DNA of 40,739 bases from a virus, in IMG/VR virus record IMGVR_UViG_3300028025_001564, positions 1 through 40,739 of that record. One strand, 5' to 3'. The notes below the pieces were generated by a model. That model did no database searches. It saw only the letters and a program-made list of their open reading frames with translations, and had not been told where the DNA came from. Numbering within the stretch: position 1 is the stretch's first letter; each line of letters begins with the position of its first letter. This document shows positions 35,980 through 40,739 of this stretch, in pieces. A program made the position numbers and the translations under genes.

Positions 35980-36333
35980 TCACCGCCTTATCAGGTCTTT
36001 GGTTAGACTGTATAATTTGTATGCTTGATAGGAGGCACTACTCCTAGATGTGCCAGGTTTTATCCCAGCAGATGCCAATCTTTCAGCAGCCATAGTTCCA
36101 CCCCATATTCCAAATGGTAGATTACCCCAACCAGTTTTACCTGACGGCATTTTCTCCATCTTCATACCCTCTGCCAAGCACTCATCTTTAACAGGGCAGG
36201 TGGCGCATAATTGTAGCGCATAGTTTATCTGAGATGCAACTCTTTTAATCTTCTCAGGCTCACTTCTACCTGTGGGAACCTCAGGAAACCACCAATCAGG
36301 GTTTTCATCACCAGTACAGTTGCCGTTAAGCAT
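35980..36333 (-). CDS. WhiB-family transcriptional regulator
   Basis: 117 aa. C6, C43, C46 and C52 (CATCPVKDEC) are the four Fe-S ligands; GIWGG (75-79) is the signature turn; a basic tail follows. The start at 36333 is preferred to 36339 because GGGAGG lies six nt before it. WhiB proteins bind sigma A and modulate promoters in response to redox; phage copies (for example in mycobacteriophage TM4) affect host growth and superinfection. This gene ties the phage to an actinobacterial host. Confidence 0.93.
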   Translation of the reverse strand: MLNGNCTGDENPDWWFPEVPTGRSEPEKIKRVASQINYALQLCATCPVKDECLAEGMKMEKMPSGKTGWGNLPFGIWGGTMAAERLASAGIKPGTSRSSASYQAYKLYSLTKDLIRR

Positions 36334-36442
36334 CCTCATCCTCCCACATTCTATCGGGTAGCCCAGTATCGTTTTCGTCTACATCATCCTCTGTTCCGTT
36401 GAGGGCATAATCATCACCTTGTAAATACATTGGCTCACTCAT
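36326..36442 (-). CDS. Tiny acidic protein, 38 aa
   Basis: MSEPMYLQGDDYALNGTEDD start; 14 of 38 residues are Asp or Glu. Its 3' end encodes the ribosome site of WhiB and overlaps its start, and its start overlaps the stop of the 45-aa gene. Nearly continuous coupling suggests a real gene or a leader that couples WhiB translation. Function unknown. Confidence 0.55.
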   Translation of the reverse strand: MSEPMYLQGDDYALNGTEDDVDENDTGLPDRMWEDEDA

Positions 36443-36572
36443 ATGCTTCCCTTTCATGAATCAATTCGACGATTATGTTATGTGCCTCATCTACCTCATC
36501 TAAGGACCCAGACCAAAGTAATGCCTGTACTTTGTTTAATTGTTGGTCTAAGTACTCGTTGGTTATTGCCAT
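36435..36572 (-). CDS. Small helical protein, 45 aa
   Basis: MAITNEYLDQQLNKVQALLW start with an amphipathic helix. An AAGGAGGATAGG ribosome site stands before ATG 36572. Palindrome copy 1 ends 14 nt upstream. It is the first gene of the cassette that leads through WhiB to the nuclease at 34980. Confidence 0.65.
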   Translation of the reverse strand: MAITNEYLDQQLNKVQALLWSGSLDEVDEAHNIIVELIHEREAYE

Positions 36573-36586
36573 CCTATCCTCCTTAG

Positions 36587-36603
36587 TGTCTGAAATTCAG
36601 ACA
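36587..36603. repeat. Start-associated palindrome, copy 1
   Basis: TGTCTGA-AAT-TCAGACA, perfect 7-bp arms. It lies 14 nt before the ATG at 36572 (-), immediately 5' of its ribosome site. No good promoter was found just upstream. Confidence 0.85.
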
Positions 36604-36604
36604 G

Positions 36605-36751
36605 TTAGTTATGTATGCCATAATCCCATGCAACCCTACGCACAGCATTTATGAGTTCCAGTTGCAAGGCTTTGATTTCTTCATCGCCCATATCGCCAAC
36701 ATCTATCCTTCTAACTTTTGCTTCCCACAATATTTCATCTGTATTTTCCAT
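36605..36751 (-). CDS. Small protein, 48 aa
   Basis: MENTDEILWEAKVRRIDVGD start; charged helical peptide ending in AVRRVAWDYGIHN. ATG overlaps the previous stop (TAATG), and its own stop is next to palindrome copy 1. Last gene of the three-gene cassette headed at 37210. Confidence 0.6.
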   Translation of the reverse strand: MENTDEILWEAKVRRIDVGDMGDEEIKALQLELINAVRRVAWDYGIHN

Positions 36752-36996
36752 TATCTCTCCAAGTCTGTTATACAATCAAGTACATATTCAAATTCAGGGC
36801 GGTATGCCTCGGGTGGGCTAGATGTATCCCACGCCATAGAGTATCCATCATGAGAGTCCCAATGAAGTCTACCTGAATACTGATTAGTTCCATCATTTAA
36901 TATGATAGACTTAGTAAATCCAGTACTCATCTTTTCGTCAGATGATATCATATATTTATCCATTAGTTCAGTAATCGTCACTTCACCCGTCAACAT
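36751..36996 (-). CDS. Hypothetical protein, 81 aa
   Basis: MLTGEVTITELMDKYMISSD start, beta-rich middle with W-D-S-H-D-G-Y-S-M-A-W and an acidic helical C-terminus. ATGGGAGTAA upstream provides the ribosome site and overlaps the previous gene's end by 14 nt. Not recognised. Confidence 0.65.
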   Translation of the reverse strand: MLTGEVTITELMDKYMISSDEKMSTGFTKSIILNDGTNQYSGRLHWDSHDGYSMAWDTSSPPEAYRPEFEYVLDCITDLER

Positions 36997-37210
36997 TTAC
37001 TCCCATTTCTACTAGTCGGCTATCTATCACCATGCTTGTTGTATCATAACTCTCGGCACCCTCACCATCTATGCCTTCACGCCATAATGCTTTACCCCTG
37101 TATGAAATATGTGAACCATCTCCATACAGACTCATAAGTAATGCGCCAGCAGCAAAATCATATACCTCTGCTATCACATCACCGCTTGGGTGGTGTACTT
37201 TTAGTTTCAT
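36983..37210 (-). CDS. Hypothetical protein, 75 aa
   Basis: MKLKVHHPSGDVIAEVYDFA start at ATG 37210, with AAAAGGATAG upstream. A longer reading from 37243 would begin inside palindrome copy 2 and is rejected. Small alpha/beta domain. First gene after promoter 37276-37304 and palindrome copy 2. Not recognised. Confidence 0.68.
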   Translation of the reverse strand: MKLKVHHPSGDVIAEVYDFAAGALLMSLYGDGSHISYRGKALWREGIDGEGAESYDTTSMVIDSRLVEMGVNVDG

Positions 37211-37225
37211 ATCTATCCTTTTCTG

Positions 37226-37242
37226 TGTCTGAAAATCAGACA
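37226..37242. repeat. Start-associated palindrome, copy 2
   Basis: TGTCTGA-AAA-TCAGACA with flanking G/C that extends the arms to 8 bp. It lies 15 nt before ATG 37210 and about 27-43 nt downstream of the expected start of promoter 37276-37304. The stop codon of the 46-aa gene lies inside it. Confidence 0.88.
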
Positions 37243-37376
37243 CCTAGTTTTTGTAGTATTAGTCTAGCGTTAGCAATTATAACATCATCTCTTTCGGTTG
37301 TCAAATTAGCGATAGAGATTAACTCTATAATTACTTTTCTGACTTCTTCTTTAGAAGCCAAAGTCATACTGTCCAT
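37236..37376 (-). CDS. Small helical protein, 46 aa
   Basis: MDSMTLASKEEVRKVIIELI start; amphipathic helices. GGAG nine nt before ATG 37376, overlapping the end of the amidotransferase gene by 26 nt. Its coding region contains the promoter 37276-37304, and its stop codon falls in palindrome copy 2. Could be a short real gene or merely a spacer. Confidence 0.55.
   Translation of the reverse strand: MDSMTLASKEEVRKVIIELISIANLTTERDDVIIANARLILQKLGV
37276..37304 (-). promoter_or_regulatory. Consensus sigma-70 promoter inside the 46-aa gene
   Basis: On the minus strand TTGACA (37304-37299), exactly 17 bp, TATAAT (37281-37276), a perfect match to both boxes. Its transcript would start near 37269, run through palindrome copy 2 and express the cassette from 37210 leftward. 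The distance from -10 to palindrome (34 nt between lower edge and top) equals that at 40199-40227. Confidence 0.8.
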
Positions 37377-38166
37377 TATATACTCCTGTCAGTTGTTTGT
37401 GTCGGTATGCGTCATACTCAGGCGACCAGCACATGCATCCATCATCTTTGACCATTCCGCAATCAAAGCATGTTAAGCATGCATAACAATGGTATGGATT
37501 GCCATCATCTAAGACCGCTACACCACAGGTATAACATGTGTAATCATCCTCAGCCGTAGGGTCATCGCTAACAGTATCCCATTGCCAGTATTTACTGTAG
37601 TCATTTTTCTTATAACTATCATTAGACCACCAGTTGCCGTCATTATCCCAAGCACCTAAGTCCTCGTTGATAATGTAGCAATCGTACTCAGCATTAGGGT
37701 CTAGGGTAAACACCGCAATCTTGCTACCGACAGACCACTTCTCTATCATGCCATACAGATTAGGGTTATCTAATGCTGTGATACCGCCCATTGACGGCAG
37801 TATATCCTCAGCAAATATGCGAGTGTCGCTACGCTTATCAGTAGGCTCAATATGCACAGGCAATATACCATTGTGCGCTAGATAGGTAAGGTCGCTACCA
37901 CCCACCTTGAATGGATGACAGTTTTCCTCATTCTTTACGCCATGTGTAGCAAATCTAGCATGATACATGGCATAACTCTTTGGATATTTTTTGCGTACCT
38001 CTAAGAATTCTTTGATTACTTTCTTAGCGGACATACCCTTACCAGTAATAATCTTATTACCAGCAATTATAGCATAGCCGAAGCCATGCGGATTATTACA
38101 AGAAGCATTATCTAAATCCTTCTTGCGTGGTGTGCTATTCGGTGAACTTACTACTAGCAGACACAT
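37351..38166 (-). CDS. Class II glutamine amidotransferase-like protein with zinc knuckles
   Basis: 271 aa. Starts with Met-Cys2, the N-terminal nucleophile of GATase-II/Ntn enzymes, and has the supporting motifs HARFATHG (69-76), CHPF (83-86), LAHNGIL (96-102, oxyanion Asn/Gly) and SDTRIFAE (113-120). The C-terminal 65 residues add Cys pairs C211/C214, C227/C230, C233/C236 and C244/C246, an unusual zinc-knuckle tail. It should hydrolyse Gln or a related amide to release ammonia. The gene overlaps the amidoligase by 32 nt and has GAAAGGAAAGAGC before its ATG. Confidence 0.85.
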   Translation of the reverse strand: MCLLVVSSPNSTPRKKDLDNASCNNPHGFGYAIIAGNKIITGKGMSAKKVIKEFLEVRKKYPKSYAMYHARFATHGVKNEENCHPFKVGGSDLTYLAHNGILPVHIEPTDKRSDTRIFAEDILPSMGGITALDNPNLYGMIEKWSVGSKIAVFTLDPNAEYDCYIINEDLGAWDNDGNWWSNDSYKKNDYSKYWQWDTVSDDPTAEDDYTCYTCGVAVLDDGNPYHCYACLTCFDCGMVKDDGCMCWSPEYDAYRHKQLTGVYNGQYDFGF

Positions 38167-39358
38167 GCTCTTTCCTTTCTATCCTAGTTAAAACATCTGA
38201 ATGTATTTGTATTCTCGCTATGAGTGATGGATATAACTCAGGCTTACTTTCTATGTACTGTCTGAAATTCAGACAGGATAGACCACCATCTCTAACTTCT
38301 TTGACACTCATTACTCTAGTGAACTCAACGCTGGCATGCGCTAAATCAATAGCAGACTTAATGAATCTCGGATTCAAACTACCTCTAAAGATTCGCATCT
38401 CTAAAGTATTTCTATTGTTAGTATTTACGGCAGAGTATCTATCGCTACCATGCCTATCGAACTTATGCTTGAAGGATTTTTGTCCAGTATCGGGGTCAAT
38501 ATTGTCATTGAACTTAGCCCAATGACTAGATGACCTGCCAGCAAGCACCTCGTAGAAGTCCTTGTTATTGTAGACTAATTGGAGGAATCTATGCTGATGT
38601 GAACCGCCATTAAATCCAGCACGAGAAATATGCACATGAAGTCCACAAGTTTTTGTACCCCATGCCATCATGTCATAGTTAGATTTAAGTGTGCTGATAG
38701 TTTCCCATAGTATATTTGCATCCTTCATAAAATAACTATGGGTCATTGGATGAGATACTATCTCAAACCCACACTCAAGTGAGCCGTCAGATTTTAGATA
38801 GGCTAATCCATCATGTTCCAATCTAACTGCGTACTCGGCTGCATATCTGCGGTCTCCATAACTACCACCTCGGACTTCTGTCTCGACTTCTATGCCAAAG
38901 TAGAGCCTAGTATTTTCATCCTCGGAACTACGGAAGATAGGGTCAGGTCTGTATGAGTAATCATGAACTAACCTAGTATCAACATCCTCATCATGATTAT
39001 ACTCGCAACCATTTAGATAGGTAGCATCACAACCCTCACAGTAAGTAGTATTATTCTCATAACACCTCTCACACATAGTGCTATCGCTATCATCTGTACC
39101 ATAAGTATAACCTGTGAAGTAATTATCGCACAGGTCGCACCAATGGGCATCATTATTGGTGCAATTCTTACACCATAACTCGCCCTCTACATCATTGAAT
39201 TCGTCATCACATGTGATAACATCTTCACATTTCATGCACATTACCATGCAACTTTCGCAGACAGGGTCTCCGCTACTGGTAGTAGTGCCATCATCACTAT
39301 CTAATGTGGTATCACAAGCAATACAGCACTTAGTTTCTACCTCATCAACAGTTTCCAT
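38135..39358 (-). CDS. Amidoligase (COOH-NH2 ligase, glutamine-synthetase fold) with Cys-rich N-terminus
   Basis: 407 aa. Residues 10-120 hold at least seven C-x-x-C pairs (C12/C15, C34/C37, C41/C44, C63/C66, C74/C77, C96/C99, C107/C110), a long zinc-knuckle array. The catalytic domain has FGIEVETE (154-161), KSDGSLECGFEIVSHP (189-204), CGLHVHIS (238-245) and NTLEMRIFRGSL (317-328), the ATP/metal and substrate motifs of the amidoligase family described by Iyer and colleagues. It should make an amide bond using ATP. Start at 39358 follows GGAAAGGATAAA; the reading from 39388 begins in palindrome copy 4. Pair partner: the amidotransferase. Confidence 0.87.
   Translation of the reverse strand: METVDEVETKCCIACDTTLDSDDGTTTSSGDPVCESCMVMCMKCEDVITCDDEFNDVEGELWCKNCTNNDAHWCDLCDNYFTGYTYGTDDSDSTMCERCYENNTTYCEGCDATYLNGCEYNHDEDVDTRLVHDYSYRPDPIFRSSEDENTRLYFGIEVETEVRGGSYGDRRYAAEYAVRLEHDGLAYLKSDGSLECGFEIVSHPMTHSYFMKDANILWETISTLKSNYDMMAWGTKTCGLHVHISRAGFNGGSHQHRFLQLVYNNKDFYEVLAGRSSSHWAKFNDNIDPDTGQKSFKHKFDRHGSDRYSAVNTNNRNTLEMRIFRGSLNPRFIKSAIDLAHASVEFTRVMSVKEVRDGGLSCLNFRQYIESKPELYPSLIARIQIHSDVLTRIERKEHVSASSKFTE
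38259..38275. repeat. Start-associated palindrome, copy 3 (inside the amidoligase gene)
   Basis: TGTCTGA-AAT-TCAGACA, perfect. The only copy inside a coding sequence (it encodes C-L-N-F-R-Q of the amidoligase C-terminus). It lies 92 nt upstream of the amidotransferase start, so it may serve that gene. Confidence 0.75.
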
Positions 39359-39370
39359 TTTTATCCTTTC

Positions 39371-39387
39371 CGTCTGATTTTCAGACA
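39371..39387. repeat. Start-associated palindrome, copy 4
   Basis: CGTCTGA-TTT-TCAGACA: one arm base differs, leaving six pairs. It lies 12 nt before the amidoligase ATG 39358 and about 13-29 nt downstream of the start expected from promoter 39407-39435. Confidence 0.82.
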
Positions 39388-39406
39388 CTTCTTGTTGAGT
39401 GAGATT

Positions 39407-39435
39407 AGTTTACACTAACTCCGCCTCTTTGTCAA
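39407..39435 (-). promoter_or_regulatory. Promoter upstream of the amidoligase gene
   Basis: On the minus strand TTGACA (39435-39430), 17 bp, TAAACT (39412-39407, four of six bases of the consensus). Perfect -35 and optimal spacing, weaker -10. It lies within the 3' end of the 73-aa gene and would drive the amidoligase/amidotransferase genes. Confidence 0.6.
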
Positions 39436-39631
39436 TTCTGCGTTGGACACTATCAAGAATTATATTCACAATCTTGTCCCGCAAATCATCAGCATACTTG
39501 GCACGCCCCTCGAAACCATGCCTCGTATTATGTATGGAGAATTGCCTAAGAGATTCCCTGACAGTTTCTAGTTCATCTCTAGTAAGTGTCAGGATAATCT
39601 CATTGGCATAATCTACATTACTTTTGGACAC
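39410..39631 (-). CDS. Hypothetical helical protein, 73 aa
   Basis: GTG start giving V(M)SKSNVDYANEIILTLTRD and long charged helices, ending RIDKEAELV. It overlaps the end of the 43-aa membrane protein gene by 14 nt and has no strong ribosome site, so coupling is likely. Not recognised. Confidence 0.65.
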   Translation of the reverse strand: MSKSNVDYANEIILTLTRDELETVRESLRQFSIHNTRHGFEGRAKYADDLRDKIVNIILDSVQRRIDKEAELV

Positions 39632-39749
39632 TTAACTCACGCAAAGCACGAGTAAGTTTAGCGTTTCTAATTGCGGTGGTGATTACCAGCGTGGTGCTAG
39701 TAGTCAGCGCAATTATAATTGCTATTGTATCCGTTATTTCGATATACAT
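39618..39749 (-). CDS. Small membrane protein, 43 aa
   Basis: MYIEITDTIAIIIALTTSTT start; one hydrophobic span (about 7-27) followed by a basic tail (RNAKLTRALRELSVQK). Palindrome copy 5 ends 20 nt upstream, and GAAGGGC provides a ribosome site. A single-span phage peptide of unknown role. Confidence 0.6.
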   Translation of the reverse strand: MYIEITDTIAIIIALTTSTTLVITTAIRNAKLTRALRELSVQK

Positions 39750-39769
39750 GATTGCCCTTCGTAAATAAG

Positions 39770-39786
39770 TGTCTGAATCTCAGACA
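39770..39786. repeat. Start-associated palindrome, copy 5
   Basis: TGTCTGA-ATC-TCAGACA with flanking G/C. It lies 20 nt before ATG 39749 (-). The adjoining region 39787-39846 holds the tRNA-like element rather than a clear promoter. Confidence 0.85.
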
Positions 39787-39791
39787 CTCGT

Positions 39792-39836
39792 GCCCACCAT
39801 AGGAATTGCACCTATGCGAAGCCGTCTAGCGTGGGC
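39792..39836 (-). other. tRNA-like 3' half (T-arm plus acceptor-like stem)
   Basis: On the minus strand, ATAGG-TGCAATT-CCTAT forms a 5-bp stem with 7-nt loop, as in a tRNA T-arm (T54, C56 and A58 positions kept). It is followed by GGTGGGCA, which reads as a 3' acceptor strand and discriminator. GCCCAC on the other side closes a 6-bp stem. The anticodon and D portions do not form a cloverleaf. It could be a decayed tRNA, an attachment-site core, or chance. Confidence 0.4.
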
Positions 39837-39846
39837 TATCCAGTTG

Positions 39847-39990
39847 CTATTCGTAGTCCGAGTCCGTAGCAACATCCTCAAGCAAATCATCAAGGTTGGT
39901 CATATCAACCTGAAAAATGTCCTCGGTTGCCATTATCTCGGCTACTTCTTGCTCGGTCATAAAGTCTAAGGCAATATCGTCAGGACTCAT
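39847..39990 (-). CDS. Small acidic protein, 47 aa
   Basis: MSPDDIALDFMTEQEVAEIM start; 16 of 47 residues acidic, helical. ATG overlaps the upstream stop (TAATG). The strong negative charge would fit a DNA-mimic or anti-nuclease peptide, but nothing specific is seen. Confidence 0.62.
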   Translation of the reverse strand: MSPDDIALDFMTEQEVAEIMATEDIFQVDMTNLDDLLEDVATDSDYE

Positions 39991-40133
39991 TAGATTAACC
40001 CCATAGCCCGTAGATATTCAGGATTAGGCTTATTGCGGTTTTCTTGCTCTAACTTATTGCGCTCTACTTCATAATGAGCATCTATCTTTTGCGCTAATTG
40101 GATTAGCACATTTTCTGCATTTTGGTCTAGCAT
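39990..40133 (-). CDS. Small helical protein, 47 aa
   Basis: MLDQNAENVLIQLAQKIDAH start, coiled-coil-like, ending NPEYLRAMGLI. TTAGGATAAT precedes the ATG, and palindrome copy 6 ends 15 nt upstream. First gene of the leftward arm after promoter 40199-40227. Not recognised. Confidence 0.65.
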   Translation of the reverse strand: MLDQNAENVLIQLAQKIDAHYEVERNKLEQENRNKPNPEYLRAMGLI

Positions 40134-40148
40134 TTTTATTATCCTAAC

Positions 40149-40165
40149 TGTCTGATTTTCAGACA
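40149..40165. repeat. Start-associated palindrome, copy 6
   Basis: TGTCTGA-TTT-TCAGACA, perfect. It lies 15 nt before ATG 40133 (-) and about 27-43 nt after the expected start of promoter 40199-40227, the same geometry as copy 2. Confidence 0.88.
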
Positions 40166-40198
40166 CTCACTTAAGATACATTTTTCCTAAGTGGCTCT

Positions 40199-40227
40199 AG
40201 TATAACATAATAGCCCCTCAATGTCAA
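40199..40227 (-). promoter_or_regulatory. Main leftward promoter
   Basis: On the minus strand TTGACA (40227-40222), 17 bp, TATACT (40204-40199). Expected start near 40192. It lies between palindrome copies 6 and 7 and opens the arm of small genes. Confidence 0.8.
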
Positions 40228-40242
40228 GTTGAGGTTAGCCCT

Positions 40243-40259
40243 TGTCTGATTTTCAGACA
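40243..40259. repeat. Start-associated palindrome, copy 7 (upstream of the main promoter)
   Basis: TGTCTGA-TTT-TCAGACA, perfect. Unlike the others it lies 15 nt upstream of a -35 box and not before a gene start, which would suit a DNA-binding protein better than an RNA hairpin. Confidence 0.82.
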
Positions 40260-40437: not shown

Positions 40438-40470
40438 AAAAAAAATAACCCCACCCCCTAAGGGGTGAGG
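40438..40470 (-). terminator. Rho-independent terminator for the rightmost leftward gene
   Basis: On the minus strand CACCCC-type stem (six pairs, 40452-40457 with 40462-40467; 4-nt loop) followed by TTATTTTTTTT. It ends transcription of the gene entering from the right edge and insulates the repeat region. Confidence 0.85.
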
Positions 40471-40488
40471 CTACTTTGTCGGGTTGAG

Positions 40489-40739
40489 TTAGGCGTTAGC
40501 CTTAACTTGAGCCTTGCTATTTTTCGCTAACTGATTCCATCCAGCGACGCAATTCATGGCAAGTTTTTCATTAACCAGTTTTGCATCTTTCATACTCAAG
40601 GTTGAAAAATACTTGATGGTCAATTCAGCAAACGCATCAGGGGTAATCCCCTTAAGGTCTGCTTCTTTCTTTGCTTCAGCATCTTTTGTAGTTGCTTCTG
40701 CTTCTGCCTTCTCGGTGGCTTCTGCTTTTGCATCCTCAG
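40489..40739 (-). CDS. Ala/Glu/Lys-rich protein, C-terminal part (gene continues beyond right edge)
   Basis: 82 residues visible, open to the window edge. First 30 are an EAK-rich helix (A-K-A-E-A-T-E-K-A-E), then a compact helical domain containing LKGITPDAFAELTIKYFSTL and MNCVAGWNQLAKNSKAQVKA. Not recognised. It is followed by its own terminator at 40438-40470 and is probably a separate, strongly expressed unit. Confidence 0.7.
   Translation of the reverse strand, partial: EDAKAEATEKAEAEATTKDAEAKKEADLKGITPDAFAELTIKYFSTLSMKDAKLVNEKLAMNCVAGWNQLAKNSKAQVKANA

Follow-up and report, generated by a model that had tools for sequence, protein, structure and literature searches.

What does a palindrome do that recurs, almost letter for letter, along one arm of a viral genome, and which protein, if any, recognizes it? 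The IMG/VR record IMGVR_UViG_3300028025_001564, whose entire contig of 40,739 bp is the window analysed here, raises this question, and an earlier note made from its letters alone had listed seven copies of TGTCTGA-NNN-TCAGACA and proposed either an RNA hairpin or the operator of a phage regulator. All seven copies were recovered at the positions given in Table 1, all are restricted to the leftward arm (36587-40259), and a search of the whole 40,739-bp record with up to two mismatches added no other. At one mismatch or fewer, seven copies compare with 0.01 expected in the record, and none of 100 dinucleotide shuffles reached seven. An eighth copy is expected just past the end of the window, which stops inside a gene that we call R; relatives carry one there. 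The central three bases vary, as the note had it, and the arms are invariant in six copies, but the copy at 39371 has one arm mismatch. Five copies indeed lie 12 to 20 nt 5' of an ATG, and AGGATA follows on the 3' side in four of these five. The further claim that every palindrome heads a gene cassette passes over two details: one copy lies within the amidoligase-like coding sequence (38259), and another lies upstream of a promoter (40243), away from any gene start.

Table 1. Sites, promoters and genes of the leftward arm, in window coordinates
Feature	Position	Strand	Remarks
WhiB-like protein	35980..36339	(-)	Same arm
Dyad site TGTCTGA-AAT-TCAGACA	36587..36603	(.)	14 nt ahead of ATG of gene 36435-36572 (-)
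Dyad site	37226..37242	(.)	15 nt ahead of ATG (37210) of gene 36983-37210 (-); promoter P3 upstream
Promoter P3, TTGACA-17-TATAAT, TG-extended, 12/12	37276..37304	(-)	33 bp upstream of site 37226
Class-II glutamine amidotransferase-like protein	37351..38166	(-)	Scores below Pfam cut-offs
Amidoligase-like protein (Amidoligase_2)	38135..39358	(-)	Contains internal site 38259
Dyad site	38259..38275	(.)	Within amidoligase-like CDS, codons SCLNFRQ
Dyad site, one mismatch	39371..39387	(.)	12 nt ahead of ATG (39358) of amidoligase-like gene
Promoter P2, TTGACA-17-TAAACT, 10/12	39407..39435	(-)	19 bp upstream of site 39371
Conserved 73-aa protein	39410..39631	(-)	Overlapping start
Small conserved protein, 43 aa	39618..39749	(-)	
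Dyad site	39770..39786	(.)	20 nt ahead of ATG (39749) of gene 39618-39749 (-)
Small acidic protein	39847..39990	(-)	Start overlaps preceding gene
First small gene of leftward operon, 47 aa	39990..40133	(-)	
Dyad site	40149..40165	(.)	15 nt ahead of ATG (40133) of first leftward-operon gene; promoter-proximal, inferred about +27 to +43
Promoter P1, TTGACA-17-TATACT, TG-extended, 11/12	40199..40227	(-)	Bracketed by sites 40243 and 40149 (the latter 33 bp downstream)
Dyad site	40243..40259	(.)	15 bp upstream of P1 -35 box; centre inferred near -59
Intrinsic terminator of R, 16-pair stem and T run	40442..40477	(-)	Separates R from operon
R, C-terminal part, candidate cognate regulator	40489..40739	(-)	Gene continues past contig end

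Relatives were gathered from IMG/VR by searching with the amidoligase-like protein and with the terminase. They carry other dyads at equivalent positions, always in a 7-3-7 layout of 7-bp arms around a spacer fixed at 3 bp, and these fall into seven motif types: TGTCTGA, TGTATTA, TGTCATA, TGCCGTA, TGCTGTA, CATATTA and CACTATA. Because the motif differs between types, a pattern search coupling it to AGGATA recovered phages with the TGTCTGA motif only. Perfect dyads make up 129 of 180 unique sites. Of 170 unique sites, 166 are of the type of their own record; among the four off-type ones, three occur at the in-gene position and the fourth at the 36587 position in contig L047. Between orthologous sites of different types, 4 to 12 of the 14 arm bases differ and the flanks are 68-84% identical. 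Site 36587, for instance, is separated from its TGTATTA counterpart by 4 of 14 arm bases with flanks 74% identical, and site 37226 from its CACTATA counterpart by 12 of 14 with flanks 76% identical.

The in-gene site is perfect in all nine TGTCTGA-type records (peptide SCLNFRQY or SCLKFRQY), and synonymous changes break it in all four records of other types that encode nearly the same peptide. In TGTATTA-type phages except L170, the peptide is DCINLIQY and the TGTATTA dyad is perfect; since some phages of other types retain TGTATTA-like arms there, the comparison at the in-gene site is clear for one type only. The amidoligase gene of L183/G018, a phage of TGCTGTA type, holds the in-gene dyad TGTATCA-ACC-TGATACA, altered symmetrically in both arms and possibly the trace of an unseen motif type. 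In two TGTATTA-type phages, L084 and L170, three sites follow one another at intervals of about 95 bp and two promoter-like sequences lie between them, an arrangement that looks like a duplication of the P1 region.

The leftward gene R, of about 200-220 aa, sits between terminase and arm; it has a terminator of its own, and a motif copy lies upstream of it. The window holds only 251 bases of it; the gene is complete in the near-twin contig L081 (725-1390, minus strand), to whose R the C-terminus encoded in the window is identical. On a tree of R from 41 records with seven motifs, the motif changes six times, which is the minimum possible, and among the genes tested only R has a tree in perfect agreement with the motif. 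The terminase tree requires 16 changes (minimum 5), the amidoligase tree 11 (minimum 6), the tree of the glutamine amidotransferase-like protein 12 (minimum 6), and the trees of two further array genes 10 changes apiece (minimum 5 or 6). Other candidates for a motif-tracking gene were rejected, namely the WhiB-like gene (8 changes, minimum 5), a sigma-like gene (7, minimum 5), and the zinc-ribbon gene together with the other arm genes, each above its minimum. The WhiB-like protein is strongly variable among relatives, out of step with the motif.

R proteins of one motif type have an average identity of 0.77, those of different types 0.27; the corresponding values for the terminase are 0.95 and 0.92. 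Four contigs carry too few copies for a motif to be defined from them, and in each the motif predicted from R was present upstream of R. Repeated dyads are absent from the same region in 14 terminase relatives that lack R, and long arms that have R carry 5-9 sites each. R adjoins the array, so some linkage is expected, and the gene g36751 tracks the motif almost equally and comes nearest to R in fit (6 changes, minimum 5); the sites might then be recognized by a regulator of the host or by some other phage protein, the match between R and motif reflecting linkage through recombining neighbouring DNA. Yet the array genes fit worse than R (10-12 changes) despite being closer to the sites, the off-type sites point to recombination inside the array, and the presence or absence of R coincides with that of the sites, and we regard this explanation as very unlikely.

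Within R, the C-terminal domain requires seven motif changes against six for the N-terminal part, and the sequences suggest that the C-terminus is a swappable module. Two C-terminal versions, diverging after about residue 160 (L116 as opposed to L105 and L099), occur among TGTCTGA-type phages, across N-terminal subgroups.

The sites are also tied to promoters. Near-consensus sigma-70 promoters lie 19-37 bp ahead of three start-associated site positions, and promoters occupy equivalent positions in most relatives; P1, P2 and P3 are among the best sigma-70 matches on the minus strand of the arm, and a clear promoter is missing in this window for sites 39770, 36587 and 38259. Two sites 89-107 bp apart flank P1 in six of the seven motif types; their spacing lacks helical phasing, and we do not claim DNA looping between them. 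Promoter-like matches as such are no commoner in the arm than chance would give, but their association with the sites exceeds chance: sigma-70 matches of at least 11/12 occur within the 75 bp upstream of 22% of sites as opposed to 1.7% of random positions. The positional enrichment before start codons, which the earlier note had put forward as a check, is likewise present, with a plausible start at most 30 nt away for 63% of 177 sites and for 14% of random positions, both figures being approximate under a simple start-calling rule. Some array sites also lie upstream of promoters, and in many arrays a coding sequence contains one. The start association looks like a by-product, arising because operators sit between promoter and ribosome site.

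With 63% of sites immediately ahead of a ribosome site, one could instead imagine RNA hairpins in mRNA leaders that control translation or processing and are recognized by R or a ribonuclease. On the sense strand the spacer is rich in A (AAA 34 times and TTT once in TGTCTGA; TAA 57 and TTA 15 times in other types), a bias that does not fit a purely symmetric DNA site and could be due to shared descent, and the predicted hairpins reach -6.9 kcal/mol for TGTCTGA and -8.3 kcal/mol for TGCCGTA. The TGTATTA and CATATTA hairpins, however, reach only -2.5 and -1.9 kcal/mol, although these are the best-conserved sites, and broken pairs comprise 23 G-U against 34 non-wobble, a lack of G-U preference by which RNA pairing is not favoured. 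One site, moreover, falls between the R terminator and P1 in nearly all records, besides the copies in coding sequences. The hairpin option was thus not borne out, given the absent G-U preference and the site between terminator and promoter, and we consider it highly improbable.

Other structured elements accompany the sites. Immediately before site 39770 lies a tRNA-like mini-helix of about 50 nt (39787-39837, minus strand) made of an acceptor stem and a T-arm, at which ARAGORN called no tRNA; an Rfam scan of the arm returned sub-threshold chance matches only. The mini-helix is kept across motif types, with TGCAATT, TTCAATT or TTCGATT as its T-loop in relatives, where an extra hairpin insert sometimes follows. 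In L089, a tRNA-like 3' end (GGTTCGAATCCCGATTAGGCAC) immediately precedes the site upstream of R (position 1058 of the arm-oriented sequence), and an additional site lies further upstream of R.

The operator option is strongly supported by the match between R and motif, by their joint presence or absence and by the promoter-linked positions. From these sequence comparisons, we estimate a probability of about three in four that the palindromes are operators of R and that R is a DNA-binding regulator of a new family acting on the leftward arm. R would bind each 7-3-7 dyad as a symmetric dimer and would control the arm at the DNA level. Relative to transcription starts inferred from the -10 boxes, sites would bracket or follow the arm promoters at about -59 and +27 (P1), +13 (P2) and +27 (P3), with additional sites between and within genes. 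By analogy with stoperators, R probably acts through repression or as a roadblock: when occupied by R, the downstream sites would block initiation or obstruct elongation, as stoperators do. The site upstream of R hints that R controls itself. Specificity would switch jointly in R and in all its sites, and a single phage group would thereby contain at least seven R/operator types, which might act as immunity groups.

The same pair could work in the opposite sense, with R as an activator or timing switch that turns on, for example, the arm or its own gene. Such a role would suit the P1 site near -59 and, in several types, a site upstream of the promoter-like sequence of R. P1 and P3, however, are near-perfect sigma-70 sequences that should need no activation, and the majority of sites lie downstream of promoters or within genes, where activators rarely act, so that we see activation as unlikely.

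As a protein, R has no meaningful Pfam or PHROG match and no PDB relative by sequence, and two models of it found nothing significant in the PDB by fold. Three R types had no match among GenBank phages, in a collection of 50,697 records that includes mycobacteriophages; a viral structure library gave one match, the unnamed protein A0A6G6XMX5 (E 0.019, probability 1.00, TM 0.41). The N-terminal 150 residues yield a confident all-helical model (pLDDT 86, pTM 0.80), in which the order of helices makes a helix-turn-helix plausible, and the structure of the C-terminal part is poorly predicted. R is a candidate for a new family of DNA-binding proteins, represented in nature by at least seven pairs of protein and site. 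One list of structural matches contained a weak one to ParB-parS, and multiple spaced copies close to one operon would suit parS-type centromere or DNA-organizing sites at which a ParB-like R maintains or condenses the phage genome. That match, however, is non-significant and does not appear among the matches listed for the better R model, ParA is absent from eight records, and the sites follow promoters, which leaves a centromere role a poor prospect.

How, then, does a regulator R with its operators compare with known systems? In cluster A phages (L5 gp71 and relatives), site consensus and repressor diverge together between subclusters, and the L5 stoperators are asymmetric 13-bp sites bound by a monomer, present in more than 20 copies genome-wide and mostly in one orientation (PMC6550527, PMC9283540). 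The present system resembles cluster A in that a single site recurs many times, at promoters and in short or transcribed gaps, and is tied to one protein, in that site and protein diverge together, and in its occurrence in actinobacterial phages (here a likely host). It differs in that its sites are 17-bp dyads, numbering 7-9 copies and confined to one arm, in that R is not detectably related to gp71 by sequence or fold searches, and in that neither integrase nor parA was found in near-full-length records, which may be incomplete.

In cluster K, the start-associated sequence (SAS) is an asymmetric 13-bp element, GGGATAGGAGCCC, that overlaps the ribosome site, whereas ESAS are imperfect 15-17-bp inverted repeats linked to SAS, with a variable spacer of mostly 4-13 bp, and in Adephagia they contain SigA-like promoters (PMC3203893; PMC11373665). 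Pope et al. (2011) left the function of ESAS open (PMC3203893). The likeness to cluster K drawn in the earlier note is apt for ESAS, as both are start-associated inverted repeats at or beside a SigA-type promoter, with a consensus specific to the subcluster or subgroup, in a non-structural arm. It does not extend to SAS, from which the present sites differ in sequence, in symmetry and in lying at least 8 nt upstream of the start. Unlike ESAS, they have a fixed 3-bp spacer and 7-bp arms and are accompanied by no SAS, and whereas ESAS are without an assigned cognate protein, here R follows the motif exactly. Since the defining features of cluster A sites and of ESAS are lacking, we assign the system to neither.

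Operators of the lambda CI/Cro type are 17-bp dyads that cluster at two promoters, with autoregulation and interchangeable immunity specificities. Dyad length is shared with the present sites, and autoregulation and interchangeable specificities would be shared on the side of R; here, however, the sites are single copies spread over several kb, one of them within a gene, and the protein belongs to another family.

An actinobacterial host is likely because the terminase is about 47% identical to those of Streptomyces phages, a WhiB-like protein is encoded, and the amidoligase-like protein matches Marvin-type genes of mycobacteriophages. Searches of the near-full-length records, which may be incomplete, turned up neither a tyrosine integrase nor a resolvase or ParA, and a prophage and host search found no terminase relatives in bacterial genomes. 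The negative outcome for integrase, resolvase and ParA gives no support to a classical lysogeny repressor, and R with its operators may serve immunity or early shut-off. A tentative and rather doubtful extension is superinfection immunity in virulent-looking phages, with resident R silencing the leftward arm of an incoming phage of the same type.

Our verdict, drawn from sequence, is that this system is an operator/stoperator variant whose regulator belongs to a new family and occurs in a natural series of matched specificities, at least seven in number. A start-associated phage palindrome is thereby tied to a single gene through exact co-variation, and the open question of the ESAS type becomes testable in phages with R and its operators. 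The natural R/site pairs would be useful for deriving a recognition code. The entire operator set, the in-gene copy included, changes jointly in nature. If the immunity reading is true, competition during co-infection would drive the repeated joint replacement of R and its operators, and immunity groups would exist without lysogeny, extending superinfection immunity beyond temperate phages.
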